A program made the position numbers and the translations under genes. DNA of 64,000 nt from an uncultured Clostridia bacterium (GTDB lineage Bacteria; Bacillota; Clostridia; Oscillospirales; Ruminococcaceae). The notes below the pieces were generated by a model that worked only from the letters and a program-made list of their open reading frames with translations, was not told the origin of the DNA and made no database searches. Location of the stretch: contig CAMCPM010000002.1 in NCBI GenBank assembly GCA_945876755.1, forward strand, positions 62,001 through 126,000, given 5' to 3'. Shown piece by piece: positions 4,509-30,356 of the stretch (positions are counted from its first letter, which is position 1; each line of letters opens with the position of its first letter).

Positions 4509-5300
4509 TTATTTTGTTTTTGCCTTCCGCCAATAAACGTCAAGCTCATCTATGTTCAAGGATTTCATGTCAATCCCATCACATCTTACCAGATTTTCAG
4601 TTTCCCTGAAACGGCGCATGAATTTTTCCGTAGCCCGTGTAAGTGCTTCTTCGGAATCGCAGTTAGTGTGTCTTGCAAGGTTAGTACACGAAAACAGCAC
4701 ATCACCAAGTTCATCTTCGATCTCAGCCTGATTTCCGCCTGCGACAGCCGCTTTAAGTTCTTCAATCTCGCTTTCGATACATTCGATAACCTTTGAAACA
4801 TTCTCGAAATCCATACCTGCACGCTCGGCTCTTTTGCCGACTTTCTGCGCACGCATAAGTGCAGGCAGCGCAGTACAAACGCTTTCAAGCGTTTCATAAT
4901 ATGTTTCCTGCCCCTTGGTCTGCTGTTTGATGTCGTTCCAGTTTTTTAACACCTCGTCGCTTGTTTCGGCAACAACATCGCCGAAAACGTGCGGATGGCG
5001 TATAACCAGCTTTTGGCAGACTTCGTTTACCACATCATCAAAACAGAAGCTTTCTTTTTCTTCCTCAATGCGGGAATGAAACACGACCTGCAGAAGAACA
5101 TCTCCCAACTCTTCACGGAGAAGCGCGGTATCTTCAAGGTCGATAGCCTCAACAACCTCATAGACTTCCTCGAGAAAGTCCTTGCGTATTGACTTGTGGG
5201 TCTGCTCTCTGTCCCATGGGCAGCCGTTTTCCGAACGCAGTATACGCATGATCTCAAGCATATCATTAATATCATATTTTTCTTTAATACGAAAATTCAT
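4509..5300 (-). CDS. mazG: Nucleoside triphosphate pyrophosphohydrolase MazG
   Basis: The 263-residue protein contains two MazG repeats, each with the metal-binding pattern ExxExxxD: EEVYEVVEAIDLED and ELGDVLLQ in the first half, and EIEELKAAV with EDELGDVLFS in the second. NTP pyrophosphohydrolases of this type remove aberrant nucleotides as monophosphate plus pyrophosphate. The start at 5300 has GGAGGC upstream and fits the family start (MNFRIKEKYDINDMLEIMRILR). A minus-strand promoter lies 58-86 bp upstream. In Bacillus the equivalent YabN carries an extra methylase domain, which is absent here. Confidence 0.93.
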   Translation of the reverse strand: MNFRIKEKYDINDMLEIMRILRSENGCPWDREQTHKSIRKDFLEEVYEVVEAIDLEDTALLREELGDVLLQVVFHSRIEEEKESFCFDDVVNEVCQKLVIRHPHVFGDVVAETSDEVLKNWNDIKQQTKGQETYYETLESVCTALPALMRAQKVGKRAERAGMDFENVSKVIECIESEIEELKAAVAGGNQAEIEDELGDVLFSCTNLARHTNCDSEEALTRATEKFMRRFRETENLVRCDGIDMKSLNIDELDVYWRKAKTK

Positions 5301-23795: not shown

Positions 23796-24020
23796 TTATA
23801 GAAGCCTGTCGATTCTTTCTTTGTCAAAGCCTATGACTACCTCGCCGTTGTCAAAAACGGTGACGGGAATCCCTGTCTGACCCGATATTTCAATCAGTTT
23901 GTCGTAATTCTCTCTTGATTCGGCAACGTCTATAACGTCATACTCAACACGTCTGCTGTCAAGGTATGCTTTCAGCTTTGTACACCAGCCGCAGCTGTCG
24001 GACGAAAATACCTTTATCAT
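23796..24020 (-). CDS. Glutaredoxin-like protein (NrdH/YruB type)
   Basis: The 74-residue protein MIKVFSSDSCGWCTKLKAYL has the redox pair Cys10-Gly-Trp-Cys13 and the cis-proline segment TGIPVTVFDNGEVVIGF. It is one thioredoxin fold, the size of NrdH-like redoxins that are reduced directly by thioredoxin reductase. It starts 1 bp after the stop of the thioredoxin reductase gene, strong support for that pairing. It could serve ribonucleotide reductase or other disulfide reduction. Confidence 0.88.
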   Translation of the reverse strand: MIKVFSSDSCGWCTKLKAYLDSRRVEYDVIDVAESRENYDKLIEISGQTGIPVTVFDNGEVVIGFDKERIDRLL

Positions 24021-24021
24021 T

Positions 24022-24960
24022 TTATTTTCCTTCTTTCATCAATATATATTTTTCAGCGTTAAGAGCAGCTGCCGCACCGTCTGAAACAGCGGTAACTATT
24101 TGTCTGTACCTCTTTTCACGGACATCTCCTGCGGCGAAAACGCCCTCGATACTTGTGTGCATATCGTTGTCGGTAACGATATATCCCTGCGGACTAAGCT
24201 CAAGACAGCCTCTTAGCAGCTCGGTACGGGGTGCGCTGCCGATATAGGCAAACACTGCTGAAAGTGGGATTTTCCATTCCCTGCGTGTCAGAATGTCGGT
24301 AACAAGAGCATATTCAAGGAAGTCATTTCCGCCGACATCAAGCAGGTCGGTGTTATACAGAAGTTCTATATTTTCAGTTTGTTCGGCTTTTTTCAAAATT
24401 GCCTTTTCCGCGTGAAAGCTGCTTTTGCGGCGTATTACAATAACCTTTTCGGCAATTTTGGAAAGGTAAAGCGCTTCTTCAACAGCAGCGCTGCCGCCGC
24501 CCACAACGCCTACTGTTTTCCCTTTGTAAGCGTTTGCGTCGCACAGTGCGCAATAGTGCACGCCTTTGCCTCTGAAACGTGATTCGTTTTTTACAAGCAG
24601 CGGCTTGGGGGTTGCTCCCGTGGCAAGAATTACCGCTGAAGGTTCGTAGATACTGCTTTCTGTAATTACCTGTTTTTTGCCGTTTGTAAGCTCGATTCGC
24701 TCAATGAAATCAAATTCTTCAATTTTAACACCGAGGGATTCTGCGTGTCTGCGGAAATTTCCTGCAAGCTCTGAGCCGGTTATGCAGGTATAGCCGGGGT
24801 AATTTTCCACGATACTGCTTTGCACAAGCTGTCCTCCGACAGTACCTTTTTCCAGTAAAACGGGGTCAAGACCTGCACGGGCGGCATATATCGCAGCGGT
24901 TATTCCTGCCGGACCTGCGCCGATTATTACAAGCTTTGTTCTTATAATTTTCTTTTCCAT
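24022..24960 (-). CDS. trxB: Thioredoxin reductase (NADPH, FAD)
   Basis: The 312-residue flavoprotein has the FAD fingerprint VIIGAGPAGITAAIYAARAG, the redox pair Cys137-Ala-Leu-Cys140 (usually CATC), the NADPH fingerprint GVVGGGSAAVEEALYLS, and GVFAAGDVREKRYRQ near the C-terminus. It reduces the redoxin encoded just downstream. The ribosome site is poor, and the start codon lies in the arm of a 10-bp inverted repeat (24953-24962 with 24983-24992). The gene is 62 bp after the membrane-protein gene and may belong to the XRE operon. Confidence 0.9.
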   Translation of the reverse strand: MEKKIIRTKLVIIGAGPAGITAAIYAARAGLDPVLLEKGTVGGQLVQSSIVENYPGYTCITGSELAGNFRRHAESLGVKIEEFDFIERIELTNGKKQVITESSIYEPSAVILATGATPKPLLVKNESRFRGKGVHYCALCDANAYKGKTVGVVGGGSAAVEEALYLSKIAEKVIVIRRKSSFHAEKAILKKAEQTENIELLYNTDLLDVGGNDFLEYALVTDILTRREWKIPLSAVFAYIGSAPRTELLRGCLELSPQGYIVTDNDMHTSIEGVFAAGDVREKRYRQIVTAVSDGAAAALNAEKYILMKEGK

Positions 24961-25022: not shown

Positions 25023-25853
25023 TTATCCGAACAGTTCAACGTCGGAAAGCTTGCTGTCGTTTTTCACCTGTGCATTTATCATTCTCTCAAAGGGACGATC
25101 TGCATTTTCAAGGCGTTCCTCTTCGGCGGCTTCTTCGTATTCCGCAAGGTTAGGAGCAAGGTGCCCGAGACTCATGATAACCTCGTCTTTAAGGTCGTCG
25201 GGAACATCGCTTACCGCCTTTGCCGCTTCGTATTCATATTCTGAAAGCTGCGGTTTATCGTCTGTAAAAAGTTCAATTCCATCTGTAATAATTTCCGACA
25301 TCTCCTGAGACGGAGGTTCAATCGGGACGTATTTTTTTACTTCAAGTTCCTCGTGAATTGAGCTTTCGTCTATAAATTCGTCCGCACCGTGTCTGTCCAT
25401 AGCGGCAAAGGAAATATTATCCATAGATGCGTCAAAGAAAGGAAATCCGGGCAGCTCTTTAAGCTTGTAAAAATCATTTGCGGCAGGAATAGCCATAATT
25501 TCCGCAAATGCAGCGGCAACGTAAGCAGCAAATGAGAGAGGTGCAAAAAATTCTCCCGACATTAATGTAACAAGTGACAGAATGAACGCCATTGGTATGC
25601 CTATCAGACAAAGCTTTGCACGGCGTGTTCGGCAGCCGATTATTGATAAAAGCGTAAACGGAATTGCAAATAATGCGAAAATTGCCATCAGCCACGGGTC
25701 ATAACCTATACACGCAGCGCCTAAGAAAAAGGATATCAGCGGCATGACCGTGCCGAAAGCAAGGCGTTTTTTTACCGTAGCGTAAAGCTTTCTTGCCCGT
25801 TCATAATGGGCAAGCGGCTGCTCCGGATCAAACAGAATAGGCTCATTGCTCAT
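25023..25853 (-). CDS. Membrane protein with four helices and long acidic cytoplasmic tail
   Basis: The 276-residue protein begins MSNEPILFDPEQPLAHYERA. Residues about 35-130 hold four hydrophobic segments; residues about 140-276 are acidic, mostly charged and probably disordered. I do not recognise a family beyond general four-helix membrane proteins. The start at 25853 has GGGGAGGG upstream. It lies 22 bp after the XRE regulator and is surely its operon partner, so it may be the membrane sensor or target of that regulator. Confidence 0.7.
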   Translation of the reverse strand: MSNEPILFDPEQPLAHYERARKLYATVKKRLAFGTVMPLISFFLGAACIGYDPWLMAIFALFAIPFTLLSIIGCRTRRAKLCLIGIPMAFILSLVTLMSGEFFAPLSFAAYVAAAFAEIMAIPAANDFYKLKELPGFPFFDASMDNISFAAMDRHGADEFIDESSIHEELEVKKYVPIEPPSQEMSEIITDGIELFTDDKPQLSEYEYEAAKAVSDVPDDLKDEVIMSLGHLAPNLAEYEEAAEEERLENADRPFERMINAQVKNDSKLSDVELFG

Positions 25854-25875: not shown

Positions 25876-26421
25876 TCAAATACCGGAAATTATGTCCTCG
25901 TAATATTTTTTCAGTTTTTCCGCAAGTTTATTCAGCAAAGCAGCTGCTTCCGATTTTAATGCGCTGTTGGCATAAAACCCCTTTTCGGCAAGAACTGCCG
26001 CTTCCTTGGCGTACTCGACCGCTTTTGCGGCGTCGCTGTCTGCGGTTTCCTCCGCAAGCTTCAGATAACAGCGTGCCTTTACCGCAGAAATTTCGTCCGA
26101 CAACGGAGAATTGTCGTCAATGCTGTCAAGACTCATGACCGCTGCACGGTAATTTCCTTTAGCAAAATGCTTTTTTGCGGAGATAAGCGCTTCGGTTTCG
26201 GGAAAAACGCAGTCACTTTCGTTTTGCGGCATAAGTGTTGATATCGGGATATCCAGGACTGAAGCAAGATATTCCAGCGTTTTCAGCGATGGAACAGCGC
26301 TTCCGCTTTCAATCTGGCTCAGCATATTCCGTGTAATAAAGCTTCCGACCACTTCGCTTTGCGTCATTTTTTTGGCAATTCGGGCTTCCTTTATGCGTCG
26401 TCCACGTTCTTCGGGGGTCAT
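25876..26421 (-). CDS. XRE-family transcriptional regulator with helical (TPR-like) C-terminal domain
   Basis: The 181-residue protein carries an XRE helix-turn-helix in residues about 8-62 (GRRIKEARIAKKMTQSEVVG, then NMLSQIESGSAVPSLKTLEYLA). Residues about 75-181 are all-helical, with Ala-rich repeats resembling TPR, a common ligand or partner-binding part. Its promoter carries the palindrome GTAAATATAATTTAC right after the -10, and two promoters reading the other way carry GTAAATGATATTTAC at the same place, so it very likely represses itself and both neighbours. AAAGGAG precedes the ATG. Confidence 0.85.
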   Translation of the reverse strand: MTPEERGRRIKEARIAKKMTQSEVVGSFITRNMLSQIESGSAVPSLKTLEYLASVLDIPISTLMPQNESDCVFPETEALISAKKHFAKGNYRAAVMSLDSIDDNSPLSDEISAVKARCYLKLAEETADSDAAKAVEYAKEAAVLAEKGFYANSALKSEAAALLNKLAEKLKKYYEDIISGI

Positions 26422-26440: not shown

Positions 26441-26455
26441 GTAAATATAATTTAC
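26441..26455. promoter_or_regulatory. XRE operator 1 (own promoter)
   Basis: GTAAAT-ATA-ATTTAC, 6-bp arms, 3 bp downstream of the minus-strand -10 box. It matches operators at 26562 and 26746. Confidence 0.75.
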
Positions 26456-26458
26456 TAT

Positions 26459-26487
26459 ATTGTAGCACAGCTTTTCAACTTTTTCAA
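26459..26487 (-). promoter_or_regulatory. Promoter of the XRE operon
   Basis: On the minus strand TTGAAA (26487-26482), 17-bp spacer, TACAAT (26464-26459), with the operator just downstream. Confidence 0.7.
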
Positions 26488-26531
26488 GAGGGTAAACCAA
26501 ATTTATTTTCAGAAATAATGTTTAATTTTAC

Positions 26532-26560
26532 TTGACAGTACGCTTTTGTATGCGTATAAT
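26532..26560 (+). promoter_or_regulatory. Promoter of the 39-residue membrane peptide
   Basis: TTGACA (26532-26537), 17-bp spacer, TATAAT (26555-26560): a consensus sigma-A promoter. Confidence 0.85.
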
Positions 26561-26561
26561 A

Positions 26562-26576
26562 GTAAATGATATTTAC
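26562..26576. promoter_or_regulatory. XRE operator 2
   Basis: GTAAAT-GAT-ATTTAC, starting 1 bp after the -10 box, over the expected transcription start. Confidence 0.78.
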
Positions 26577-26608
26577 CTAATAAATATATCAAAAAGGACG
26601 GGGCAATT

Positions 26609-26728
26609 ATGTTTATATTGACGGAAGCTTTTTATACAGCGGTATTTTTGTGTTTTACGGCAATTTTTATGCCCAACGGATTGATTTTAATGTATATTTT
26701 TATTAAAAGGTACTTGACAAATCGTTAA
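26609..26728 (+). CDS. Small membrane peptide of the XRE regulon
   Basis: This 39-residue frame starts at ATG 26609 and stops at 26726-26728. It reads MFILTEAFYTAVFLCFTAIF and continues through PNGLILMYIFIKRYLTNR: nearly all hydrophobic with a basic tail, enough for one or two membrane helices. It has its own consensus promoter and XRE operator, and AAGGACGGGG 12-16 bp upstream as a ribosome site. Its 3' end overlaps the -35 box of the NfeD promoter. I know no homologue. It may be a toxin-like, sensor or flotillin-partner peptide; the position and promoter are what make it credible. Confidence 0.6.
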   Translation: MFILTEAFYTAVFLCFTAIFMPNGLILMYIFIKRYLTNR

Positions 26729-26742
26729 TATGAGGCTATAAT
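26714..26742 (+). promoter_or_regulatory. Promoter of nfeD-flotillin
   Basis: TTGACA (26714-26719), 17-bp spacer, TATAAT (26737-26742): a consensus sigma-A promoter. Confidence 0.85.
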
Positions 26743-26745
26743 GTA

Positions 26746-26760
26746 GTAAATGATATTTAC
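26746..26760. promoter_or_regulatory. XRE operator 3
   Basis: GTAAAT-GAT-ATTTAC, identical to operator 2, starting 3 bp after the -10 box. Confidence 0.78.
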
Positions 26761-26786: not shown

Positions 26787-27461
26787 ATGGCTGAATGGTG
26801 GGAAAGTCTTTCAACTCTTATGAGAATTTTATATTGCATTGCCGTTCCTGCAACGTTGATTCTGCTTTTGCAGACTATACTGTCTATCTCCGGCTTTGGC
26901 GACGACGGCGATATAAATCTCAGCGATACAAGCGGAATTGATATGGGGGGGACCGATGTCGATATTTCGGCAGATGTTGACGCAGACATCGGAACGGATT
27001 TCGATTGTCCCGAGGGTGACGGCGATTTGCCCTATCATGTCCATGCGGATTATGCTCCGCTTCAGCTTTTTACCGTTCAGGGAATGGTTGCATTCTTTGC
27101 GGTGGCGGGCTGGGTGGCAATTGCTGCTGTAAGCGGTGGAATTCCTGCCGTGGGTGCAATTCCTCTTGGAGTAATTGCAGGTTTCTTTGCAATGTTCGGG
27201 GTGGCGAAGCTTGTTCAGATAAGCAAAAAGCTTACCGAGAACGGTACTGTTGATTTCCGCAACGCCATTGGAGAAACTGCTACTGTGTATATTCCTGTTC
27301 CGCCCGCAAACGAGGGTGAGGGAAAGGTCACACTTACTTTGCAGGGACGTTTTATGGAATGCAGCGCTGTTTCAAACGAGCGTGAGCTTCTTAAAACGGG
27401 AACCGTTGTGCGTGTTACCGATTTAAACGGCGAAACTCTTGTTGTCGAGCGTGAACAGTAA
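26787..27461 (+). CDS. NfeD-like membrane protein (YuaF type)
   Basis: The 224-residue protein has an N-terminal helix (about residues 10-33), an acidic extracellular loop rich in Asp and Gly (about 38-80), two more helices (about 95-145) and a C-terminal beta-rich OB-fold (from about 155: IGETATVYIPVPPANEGEGK) as in NfeD. NfeD proteins are partners of flotillins and stomatins in membrane microdomains; the Bacillus pair is yuaF-yuaG. The flotillin gene follows 44 bp downstream. The Asp-rich loop is longer than I expect for YuaF and may bind cations. Confidence 0.82.
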   Translation: MAEWWESLSTLMRILYCIAVPATLILLLQTILSISGFGDDGDINLSDTSGIDMGGTDVDISADVDADIGTDFDCPEGDGDLPYHVHADYAPLQLFTVQGMVAFFAVAGWVAIAAVSGGIPAVGAIPLGVIAGFFAMFGVAKLVQISKKLTENGTVDFRNAIGETATVYIPVPPANEGEGKVTLTLQGRFMECSAVSNERELLKTGTVVRVTDLNGETLVVEREQ

Positions 27462-27505: not shown

Positions 27506-29137
27506 ATGGAAAATATTGAAACATTGATAGCGATATGCGTGATCGTCGTTGTGCTTTTTGCGGCGGTTGCGGCAATTCTTTCGCGGTACAGAAAGTGTCC
27601 ATCGGACAAAATTATGGTAATTTACGGTAAGGTTGGAACCGATAAAAACGGTCAGGCAAGAAGCGCCAAGTGTATTCACGGCGGCGCGGCTTTTATTGTG
27701 CCTGTTATCCAGTCGTTCCAGTACCTTGACCTTACGCCGATATCTATTAACGTTGACCTTAAAAATGCTCTTTCAAAGCAGAATATCCGTGTTGACGTTC
27801 CCTCCCGTTTTACGGTAGGTATCTCCACTGAGCCGGGCATTATGCAGAATGCTGCTGAACGTCTTCTCGGTCTGAAAATGATGGAGATCCAGGAGCTTGC
27901 AAAGGATATTATTTTCGGTCAGCTTCGTCTTGTAATCGCTACAATGGAGATCGAGGAGATAAATACCGACCGTGACAAATTCCTTGTTGCGGTATCCAAC
28001 AACGTTGAAATTGAGCTGAAGAAAATCGGTCTGCGTCTTATCAACGTTAACGTAACCGATATCAACGACGAGTCGGGATATATTGACGCTCTTGGTAAGG
28101 AAGCTGCTGCAAAGGCTATCAACGACGCCAAAAAGAGCGTTGCCGAAAAAGACAGAGACGGTGCTATCGGTGAAGCAAATGCACGCAGAGACCAGCGTAT
28201 TCAGGTCGCTGCTGCAAACGCTACCGCTATTGACGGTGAAAATGAGGCTAAAATCTCAATCGCTCAGTCAGAGGCTATCCGCAGACAGAAAGAGGTTGAG
28301 GCTGACGCAAAGGCTACAAATGATGCAAAAATTGCAGTTGCTATGACGAGCCGTGACGGTGAAATTGGTCAGGCAAACGCATTGAAGGAACAGCGTATTC
28401 AGGTTGCTGCTGCTAATGCTGCTGCAATTCAGGGTGAAAACGACGCTAAGATCTCAATTGCTCAGTCCGAAGCAAAACGCCGTGAAAAAGAAGCCGAGGC
28501 TCTCAAAATGGCTACCGCAGCAGAGGCTGTACAGTCTGCAAAGGCAAAGGAAGAAGCTTATTCTGCACAGCAGGAAGCTGAAAGCAAGCGTGCTGAACTG
28601 GAAATGGCTACTCAGAAGGCTGACGTTATCGTAAAAGCTCAGATCGAAAAGGAAAAAGCCGAGATCGCTGCCGAGGCTGAGGCTGAAGTTCTTCGCCGCA
28701 AGGCTCGAGGCGAAGCTGACGCTCTGTATGAAAAAATGGCTGCCGAGGCTCGCGGTGCGCAGGAGATACTCCAGAAGCAGGCAGAGGGTATGAAAGCACT
28801 TATCGAAGCTGCCGGTGATGCGGATTCTGCCGTTAAAATGGTCGTTGCTGACAAGCTTGAAGAACTTATGCGCATTCAGGTGGACGCTATCAAGAATATC
28901 AAGATCGACAAGGTCACTGTCTGGGACGGCGGCAAAAACGGTGACGGAAACACCGCTACTGCTGATTTTATCTCCGGCATGATGAAATCCGTTCCGCCTC
29001 TGAATGAACTGTTCAAGCAGGCAGGAATGGAGCTTCCTGCACTTCTCGGCAAGGAGCTGGAAGCTGACGGAAAGCAGGAGAGCGTTCCTGAAAAGGCTGA
29101 GGAAGCTGCTGTACCAGAGCCCGCTGAACAGGAGTAA
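27506..29137 (+). CDS. floT: Flotillin family protein
   Basis: The 543-residue protein has one N-terminal membrane helix (about residues 5-26), an SPFH/band-7 domain (about 35-205) and a long coiled-coil tail rich in Ala, Glu and Lys. Flotillins build membrane microdomains and help respond to envelope stress. The tail contains a 66-residue duplication: residues 218-283 and 284-349 repeat the pattern DG-IG-AN-...QRIQVAAANA-AI-GEN-AKISIAQSEA. GGGAGG precedes the ATG. The tail after about residue 510 is acidic and low-complexity. Confidence 0.92.
   Translation: MENIETLIAICVIVVVLFAAVAAILSRYRKCPSDKIMVIYGKVGTDKNGQARSAKCIHGGAAFIVPVIQSFQYLDLTPISINVDLKNALSKQNIRVDVPSRFTVGISTEPGIMQNAAERLLGLKMMEIQELAKDIIFGQLRLVIATMEIEEINTDRDKFLVAVSNNVEIELKKIGLRLINVNVTDINDESGYIDALGKEAAAKAINDAKKSVAEKDRDGAIGEANARRDQRIQVAAANATAIDGENEAKISIAQSEAIRRQKEVEADAKATNDAKIAVAMTSRDGEIGQANALKEQRIQVAAANAAAIQGENDAKISIAQSEAKRREKEAEALKMATAAEAVQSAKAKEEAYSAQQEAESKRAELEMATQKADVIVKAQIEKEKAEIAAEAEAEVLRRKARGEADALYEKMAAEARGAQEILQKQAEGMKALIEAAGDADSAVKMVVADKLEELMRIQVDAIKNIKIDKVTVWDGGKNGDGNTATADFISGMMKSVPPLNELFKQAGMELPALLGKELEADGKQESVPEKAEEAAVPEPAEQE
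28151..28546 (+). repeat. Tandem 198-bp duplication inside the flotillin gene
   Basis: Two units of about 198 bp (starting near 28157 and 28355) encode two copies of a 66-residue segment. The stretch CAGCGTATTCAGGT occurs in both, 198 bp apart. Confidence 0.8.
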
Positions 29138-29319: not shown

Positions 29320-29392
29320 GTAGGGGCGGAATCTATTTCCGCCCGTGGTTTACAGATGATTTATATTCGGGCGGATATGGAATCCGCCCCTA
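29320..29392. repeat. Nested GC-rich inverted repeat (REP-like)
   Basis: Arms at 29320-29345 and 29368-29392, each itself a small hairpin (GGGGCGGAA...TTCCGCCC and GGGCGG...CCGCCCC), ending in GTAGGGG and CCCCTAC. Elements with this GTAGGGGCGG signature are dispersed in many clostridial genomes. Confidence 0.65.
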
Positions 29393-29459
29393 CAATATAA
29401 TTTTATCATAGTACGCTAAACTATAATTTATTACATACTAACCTCATCAAGTAGAAAAA

Positions 29460-29564: not shown

Positions 29565-30356
29565 TTAGCGTGAGACTTTTTCTCTTTTGTTTCCCGAAAG
29601 CTTAAATCTAAGACGAAGATTATCAGTAATGAGCGCAATAAATTCCGAGTTTGTCGGCTTGCCTTTTCCAACGCTTATGGTATATCCAAACATTCCGTTA
29701 AGTACGTCCACGTCGCCCCTGTCCCATGCGGTTTCAATTGCATGACGGATAGCACGTTCAACCCGTGAGGCTGTTGTATCAAAACGCTGTGCAACGGACG
29801 GATAGAGCAATTTTGTTACGCTTTCGAGCATTTCGTCATCGTTCAGCGCAAGAATAATGGCTTCACGCAGATAATGATAACCCTTTATGTGTGCAGGAAT
29901 TCCGATTTGGTGTATAATGTCGGTCACGACCATTTCTACACGGGGGGAATCATCGTTTATTTCCGAAAGGTTTTCAACAGATGTTAAACGGATTCTCCCG
30001 ACAGTGCTGAGGAATGATTCGGCGTCAAATGGTTTAAGTATAAAATATGCATTGGAAAATTCCATTATCTCTTTTTCAACAAACGCATTTCTGTAAAGTG
30101 ATGACACGATGAAGAAAGGTTTTTTACCGGAACTGTCGGCATTGACTTTTCTGATAAGGTTTACTGCATCTATTCCCGGCATGACCGCTTCGCACAGAAC
30201 GATATCAGGCTGAAATTCGCTTATAGCGGCAAGAACGGCATTTCCGTCGGCATTGCAGGTTTTAAAGCTTATACCTGAAACTTCAAGGTTCCTGTAGAAT
30301 GATTCTCCGTAGCTGCAGATATCTTCACAGATCAATAGTTTGGAATTATTTGACAT
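29565..30356 (-). CDS. spo0A: Spo0A homologue with degenerate receiver
   Basis: The 263-residue protein has the Spo0A DNA-binding domain in residues about 145-258: [35 protein letters not shown], and [18 protein letters not shown], all hallmarks of Spo0A. The receiver (1-122) keeps Glu10-Asp11, the serine switch residue and YFILKPFD with its lysine, but the phospho-acceptor Asp56 is Glu ([10 protein letters not shown], codon 30191-30189). Known Spo0A is activated by phosphorylation of this Asp and then controls sporulation and stationary-phase genes. Glu may mimic phosphate or end phospho-control. AAGGAGG precedes the ATG. No Spo0F, Spo0B or KinA-type gene lies nearby. Confidence 0.9.

Follow-up and report, generated by a model that had tools for sequence, protein, structure and literature searches.

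A palindromic operator predicted for an XRE regulator beside an nfeD-flotillin operon in Ruminococcaceae

Which protein acts at a 15 bp palindrome that is repeated at three promoters of a single locus, and does it switch the genes behind it on or off? The question is raised by a window of 64,000 nucleotides from an uncultured Ruminococcaceae bacterium (GenBank assembly GCA_945876755.1, contig CAMCPM010000002.1, positions 62,001 to 126,000 of the forward strand), in which the motif GTAAAT-N3-ATTTAC lies between the gene for an XRE-family regulator and a divergent operon encoding an NfeD-like membrane protein and a flotillin. We consider it highly probable that this motif is the operator of the adjacent XRE protein, which would be an autoregulated repressor acting over the starts of its own gene, of a short hydrophobic peptide gene and of nfeD-flotillin, and would keep a membrane-scaffold module off. 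An earlier note on this DNA had placed the flotillin operon in an XRE regulon and had read repression from the position of the sites over the transcription starts, and the conserved sites and promoter register described below support this as the best reading of the sequences.

Three palindromes at one locus

The three strandless copies were located by pattern match, all with no mismatches and at the positions first reported. One (GTAAATATAATTTAC, 26441..26455) lies 3 bp after the TACAAT of a predicted minus-strand XRE promoter (TTGAAA-17-TACAAT, 26459..26487), the second (GTAAATGATATTTAC, 26562..26576) lies 1 bp after the -10 box of a predicted plus-strand peptide promoter (TTGACA-17-TATAAT, 26532..26560), and the third (GTAAATGATATTTAC, 26746..26760) lies 3 bp after the -10 box of the predicted plus-strand nfeD promoter (TTGACA-17-TATAAT, 26714..26742). 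The 1–3 bp distance from each -10 box that the earlier note had described thus holds, as do the full-consensus promoters at the peptide and nfeD genes, and the XRE promoter, with two mismatches, is weaker than had been implied. Profile matches agree with the earlier description of the flanking genes as encoding an HTH_3 protein, a 39-residue hydrophobic open reading frame (ORF), an NfeD-like protein and a Band_7/flotillin protein.

These are the only perfect copies found by pattern search in the 64-kb window and in the 2.34-Mb genome, and the chance expectation from base composition for the palindrome in the 365-bp intergenic stretch is 0.0002. We also considered additional regulon sites in the window's genome and rejected them. 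Allowing one mismatch yields seven further sites in that genome, fewer than the 17 obtained with a reversed control pattern, so that the weaker sites are as a set attributable to chance.

Sites and regulator across genomes

Within the genus, the sites follow the XRE gene closely. A search of 61 genomes gives XRE orthologs (at least 52% identity) in 17 of the 21 same-genus genomes, counting the window's own, and in a single genome from a different genus. Perfect sites are present in exactly those 17 same-genus genomes, 16 of which have three at this locus. G010 has two sites there and also lacks the peptide. The four same-genus genomes without an XRE ortholog have no site; three of them give weak helix-turn-helix (HTH) matches and G017 gives no match. 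Three of these four also lack a flotillin ortholog (in G003 there is no more than a 31% match, and G017 is 70% complete), and in G008 (77% complete), which has no XRE ortholog, the flotillin gene is 430 bp from a contig end and is hence uninformative.

The same association is seen in a family survey of 197 genomes that combined the pattern search with an XRE search at E 1e-10. One or more perfect sites are present in 18 of the 19 XRE-positive genomes, and two or more in 17 (57 sites in total), as against 47 and four of the 178 XRE-negative genomes (51 sites in total). The means are 3.0 perfect sites per XRE-positive genome versus 0.29 per XRE-negative genome, and since a control pattern occurs about 0.26 times per genome over all 197 (a hand count), the sites in XRE-negative genomes are at about the chance rate. 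Fisher values for the co-occurrence are 5e-9 and 7e-19, although the genomes are related and these values overstate their independence. Of the 19 positive genomes, 16 carry a perfect site right at the XRE locus; G107 and G109 have one-mismatch sites there, and G165, with the most distant XRE protein (37%), has a two-mismatch site. In G201 the one perfect site is at nfeD. At the level of the phylum, the XRE alignment at E 1e-30 matches two of 398 genomes, one of them the window's own, so that the system is found mainly in one family and only sporadically outside it.

A third comparison used named relatives. Degenerate patterns picked out 313 stretches, and the 80 loci kept come from Oscillospiraceae, Lachnospiraceae and others, with at least 16 of them duplicating records already counted among the same-genus genomes. 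Together with the window's locus this makes 81, of which 66 have XRE and nfeD in divergent orientation, two have them on the same strand, and 13 have no nfeD in the available stretch. The scan close to XRE gives one or more perfect sites in 65 of the 80 loci and two or more in 52, with Ruminococcus bicirculans 80/3 (L075), Sinanaerobacter chloroacetimidivorans BAD-6 (L105) and Anaerovorax sp. IOR16 (L125) having two each. The half-sites are mostly fixed, and the 132 perfect sites in these relatives carry 38 different 3-bp spacers. A symmetric double change, GTAAAC-N3-GTTTAC, is found in six loci and fits binding by a dimer. In genus, family and named relatives alike, the palindromes are thus strongly conserved where the genes are kept, a positive outcome for the check that the earlier note had proposed.

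The predicted regulon is also wider than that note held, in that it adds a second NfeD-SPFH operon in seven genomes, the window's own not among them. This operon encodes a short NfeD (five were tested and score 44–57 bits with Pfam NfeD) and a stomatin-type Band_7 protein (the single one tested scores 135.8 bits, the other homologs being placed by search), and a perfect site precedes it in genomes of five genera (G015; G182; G107 and G199; G065; G232 and G154), for which the chance expectation is about 0.0006. The search covered 30 genomes, comprising 28 of the 33 XRE-positive genomes then found and two controls; the operon is present in 22 of the 28 and has a perfect site in seven of the 22, six of the 23 stomatin loci being judged from genome-wide site lists. 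By eye, the site lies 4–6 bp after a -10 box at five of the seven operons. Two of the seven genomes, G107 and G199 of genus g88, have no flotillin match at E 1e-20, as is the case for three of the 16 genomes searched (G146 is the third), and they keep XRE and the stomatin-operon site.

Linkage alone names no binder, and the XRE gene, which carries the site itself, could be merely one target of another DNA-binding protein that owns the palindrome. We regard this as unlikely, given the fall of the sites to about the chance rate where XRE is missing and given that the recognition region of XRE is invariant together with the site. In an alignment of the window's protein with those of 53 of the 80 named loci (42–69% identical to it), the segment FITRNMLS (residues 28–35, within the HTH) is invariant across all 54 proteins, and the C-terminal half is variable. 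Furthermore, in genus g88, with no flotillin match, XRE keeps its own site (perfect in G199, with one mismatch in G107).

If the XRE protein is the binder, the position of the sites bears on the direction of control. A perfect site is present in 63 of the 66 divergent loci, and the site nearest nfeD is 3–4 bp after the -10 box in 55 of the 63 and has a promoter matching both hexamers fully in 55 of the 63, where in loci with one perfect site that site was counted as belonging to nfeD, a simplification. A full TTGACA/TATAAT promoter and the 3–4 bp distance occur together in 50 of the 63 loci, with a spacer of 16–18 bp (17 bp in 27 of these); by comparison, a full promoter is in reach of 1.3% of randomly chosen positions in those regions. 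Sites on the XRE side are 3–5 bp after the best -10 box in 46 of 53. Because the site covers the predicted start of an already ideal promoter, this arrangement fits repression. It is quite unlikely that XRE binds instead as an activator or dual regulator: the proteins with the closest folds, the XRE proteins PlcR, ComR and Rgg with tetratricopeptide repeat (TPR) domains, are often activators, but activators normally bind upstream, and here the site, 3–4 bp beyond the -10 box, overlies the predicted start of promoters that match the full consensus. Very unlikely indeed is a role for the palindrome in RNA as a short 5'-end hairpin, since, although an inverted repeat does directly follow the -10 boxes, transcription beginning some 7 bp beyond such a box would start within the first arm and leave a transcript without part of it, and a 6-bp, mostly A-U stem with a 3-nt loop would by our reasoning be weak.

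Several observations weigh against an XRE-bound repressor site of this kind. For 15 of the 80 named relatives the scan near XRE gives no perfect site; nine of these have a one-mismatch site, and two (L100 and L115) have the symmetric GTAAAC-N3-GTTTAC in the scanned stretch and a perfect site near nfeD. L072 (in which the contig begins 223 bp before the XRE gene) and L099 have no site at one mismatch or fewer, and L096 and L123 have two-mismatch sites only. The XRE-side promoters are mostly weak, with three or four mismatches in 39 of 53, which makes their register less sure. Among stomatin operons, 15 of 22 lack a perfect site, including the window genome's own (G000:C27), and the NfeD1 site is about 27 bp after the -10 box in L213 and upstream of the likely promoter in L220. 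G146 (88% complete) has XRE but neither a flotillin match nor a stomatin-operon site, and many off-locus perfect sites in XRE-positive genomes are at unrelated genes or within genes. Finally, the counted genomes are related, the genus and named-locus counts overlap, and the P values do not come from independent cases.

Two placements among the off-locus sites were seen in paired genomes. In L216 and L218 (G107 and G199, genus g88) a perfect site closely follows a TATATT box and precedes a Ser/Asp-rich lipoprotein-like gene by 41–42 bp, and in L222 and L225 (G232 and G154, genus g135) one lies 171–177 bp before the same ABC-transporter-like ATPase gene.

The encoded proteins and a proposed mechanism

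The regulator (181 aa; 25876..26421, minus strand) is an XRE-family protein by its Pfam HTH_3 match (38.4 bits, cut-off 23), and HTH_3, the structural model and the alignment together describe an N-terminal HTH followed by a short, probably TPR-like helical domain. The AlphaFold2 model has the HTH plus five more helices (pLDDT, the predicted local distance difference test, 88.8; pTM, the predicted template-modelling score, 0.58). Searches with the whole fold point to PlcR, which is the top match both in Foldseek and for the HTH sequence, and to ComR, which is top by VIA, and searches with the C-terminal part point to TPR proteins, although helical repeats readily give high scores in such searches. 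A C-terminal TPR-like sensor domain is likely. Sequence matches in the PDB cover the HTH region alone in six of seven cases and extend to residue 90 in one, and a plasmid search with XRE gives matches to the HTH region. In L111, L119 and L124 a gene of about 100 aa, which we take to resemble the YbjQ/UPF0145 family, was seen by eye on the XRE strand between XRE and its operator, and XRE would then be second in its operon there.

The protein would share with the RRNPP receptors PlcR, ComR and Rgg the combination of an HTH and a TPR-like helical domain, the latter predicted. It differs in that those receptors are about 260–310 aa long versus 181 aa, in that the sequence similarity is confined to the HTH, and in that the co-regulated peptide at this locus is hydrophobic over most of its length. 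No common secreted propeptide gene was noticed in scans of hydrophobic small ORFs on the nfeD strand and of downstream ORFs longer than about 35 aa, and the sole small gene seen in the small-ORF scans is the genus-confined hydrophobic peptide. XRE is not classed as an RRNPP receptor.

That peptide (39 aa; 26609..26728, plus strand), predicted to lie in the membrane, is, as judged by the ORF, its same-genus conservation and its substitution pattern, a real gene restricted to the genus. Of the 17 same-genus loci, 16 have a hydrophobic ORF of 38–46 aa following the middle site; in two-site loci of other genera, no counterpart (a hydrophobic ORF with a ribosome site) was seen. The gene overlaps the nfeD promoter, whose -35 box forms peptide codons 36–37 (TTG ACA), and the conserved peptide end YLT is partly imposed by this overlap. 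With the last five codons excluded, the proportion of nonsynonymous differences (pN) is below that of synonymous differences (pS) in seven of eight overlapping close pairs (the window paired with its closest relative has pN 0.07 and pS 0.31), while the remaining pair has one difference only and is uninformative, and this pattern makes it very likely that the peptide is translated.

A multi-helix membrane protein of about 276 aa (25023..25853, minus strand), encoded 22 bp behind XRE and likely in the same transcript, appears to be accessory. The earlier note had cast it as a four-helix partner, and we reject it as a core component: relatives are present behind XRE in nine of the 17 same-genus loci and missing in five, with three cut by contig ends, and none were found in the other-genus loci examined in the same way. 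Adjoining the XRE operon, glutaredoxin-like and thioredoxin-reductase-like genes lie side by side (23796–24960, minus strand).

On the other side, the NfeD-like membrane protein (224 aa; 26787..27461, plus strand) is tentatively assigned to the NfeD2/YuaF type from a weak Pfam NfeD match (18.9 bits, under the cut-off of 29.1), a weak match to YuaF 2k14 (E 0.43) and its position before the flotillin gene, which fits a YuaF-type NfeD2. The flotillin (543 aa; 27506..29137, plus strand) has an SPFH/Band_7 domain (Pfam Band_7, 90 bits) with a flotillin-like C-terminal part, and the solved flotillin-1 structure aligns to it over residues 56–458 (E 3e-22). It is not FloT in the strict sense, because it reaches neither the Pfam Flot cut-off (15.5 of 27 bits) nor that of the NCBIfam FloT equivalog (150.9 of 700 bits). 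The flotillins of most other-genus relatives align to it in two pieces that skip residues ~263–282, which suggests that the coiled-coil stretch is longer or repeated in the window's protein.

Some further features of this operon and its surroundings were seen. In five same-genus loci (L049, L051, L055, L058 and L059) the nfeD operon begins with an additional gene of about 95 aa, between the third site and nfeD, and the one product tested is weakly GRAM-domain-like (17.8 bits, under the cut-off). Directly after the flotillin gene, and convergent with it, is a spo0A gene (29565–30356, minus strand; Pfam Spo0A_C 149 bits), and no spo0A relatives were found among the ORFs of 100 related loci, many of which have little sequence past flotillin. 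Between the two genes (29320–29400) there is an inverted repeat with GGGGCGGAATC / GATTCCGCCCC-like ends that by eye looks like a small dispersed repeat.

The proposed mechanism is as follows. A dimer of the XRE HTH would bind one palindrome, and the bound protein would block RNA polymerase at the strong consensus promoters of nfeD-flotillin and of the peptide gene; the weaker promoter of XRE, under the same control, would set the repressor level. The C-terminal TPR-like domain may receive the inducing signal, candidates being a peptide, the tail of a protein or some other cytosolic indicator of membrane state, and release of XRE would then give a burst of NfeD and flotillin by which the membrane is stiffened or reorganised. 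By analogy, we infer that the system may be linked to membrane stress. A broader proposal, which we offer tentatively and consider rather doubtful, is that the XRE-TPR repressor controls the whole class of NfeD-SPFH scaffolds, flotillin and stomatin included, and that in the window's genus it also controls a single-pass micropeptide, whose reading frame carries the nfeD -35 box and which would act from the membrane side as a feedback partner, signalling the state of the scaffold or the membrane to the repressor.

If XRE does repress in this manner in these anaerobic gut clostridia, the regulon of any genome could be predicted from the operator, and removal of XRE would turn the scaffold on without added stress. 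The shared site before the second NfeD-SPFH operon, kept in two genomes without a flotillin match, points to one functional scaffold class, and the co-regulated micropeptide is a candidate new partner of flotillin or NfeD.

Relation to known systems

Most work on bacterial flotillins has been done in Bacillus and Staphylococcus. Among the matches listed from the open-licence literature, no paper was found to deal with control of flotillin or NfeD by an XRE protein, judged by titles and the starts of abstracts; two with matching terms concern, in the portions seen, other matters, namely a formula rendered 'nFED' (PMC11371792) and prophages (PMC4936722).

As a described arrangement, nfeD followed by flotillin corresponds to SPFH2/NfeD2, and the second operon to SPFH1/NfeD1, in the excerpt of PMC2636767. 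No regulator is described in that excerpt, and the divergent XRE gene and the shared operator are additions to it (PMC2636767). PspA operons offer a related picture, with HTH regulators beside membrane-stress genes and possibly Band_7 and NfeD partners, but the excerpted account is PspA-centred and names no XRE (PMC9239133). No pspA was identified at the locus studied here.

Another control of a flotillin gene is that of floT in B. subtilis, which is under Spo0A through AbrB; according to the excerpt, AbrB is a DNA-binding repressor that keeps floT low, and the gene is released in another state (PMC4409396), as would be the case for the predicted XRE repressor and its targets. XRE differs in being local, with the perfect sites in the window's genome confined to this locus. 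AbrB is a global regulator of another family, encoded away from floT.

A further parallel is with sigma-W, of which both yuaF-yuaG(floT)-yuaI and yqeZ-yqfA are core targets in B. subtilis, so that there too, as far as the excerpt goes, one regulator acts over more than one NfeD-SPFH operon (PMC3498285). The means are different, an activating alternative sigma factor in one case and, in the other, a predicted XRE repressor encoded nearby, with sites over vegetative-type consensus promoters. The sigma-W consensus is TGAAAC-N15-18-CGTA; no promoter of this type is present at the locus, and the sole match in the window is at 4607. A local XRE repressor seems to do in these clostridia what sigma-W does in Bacillus.
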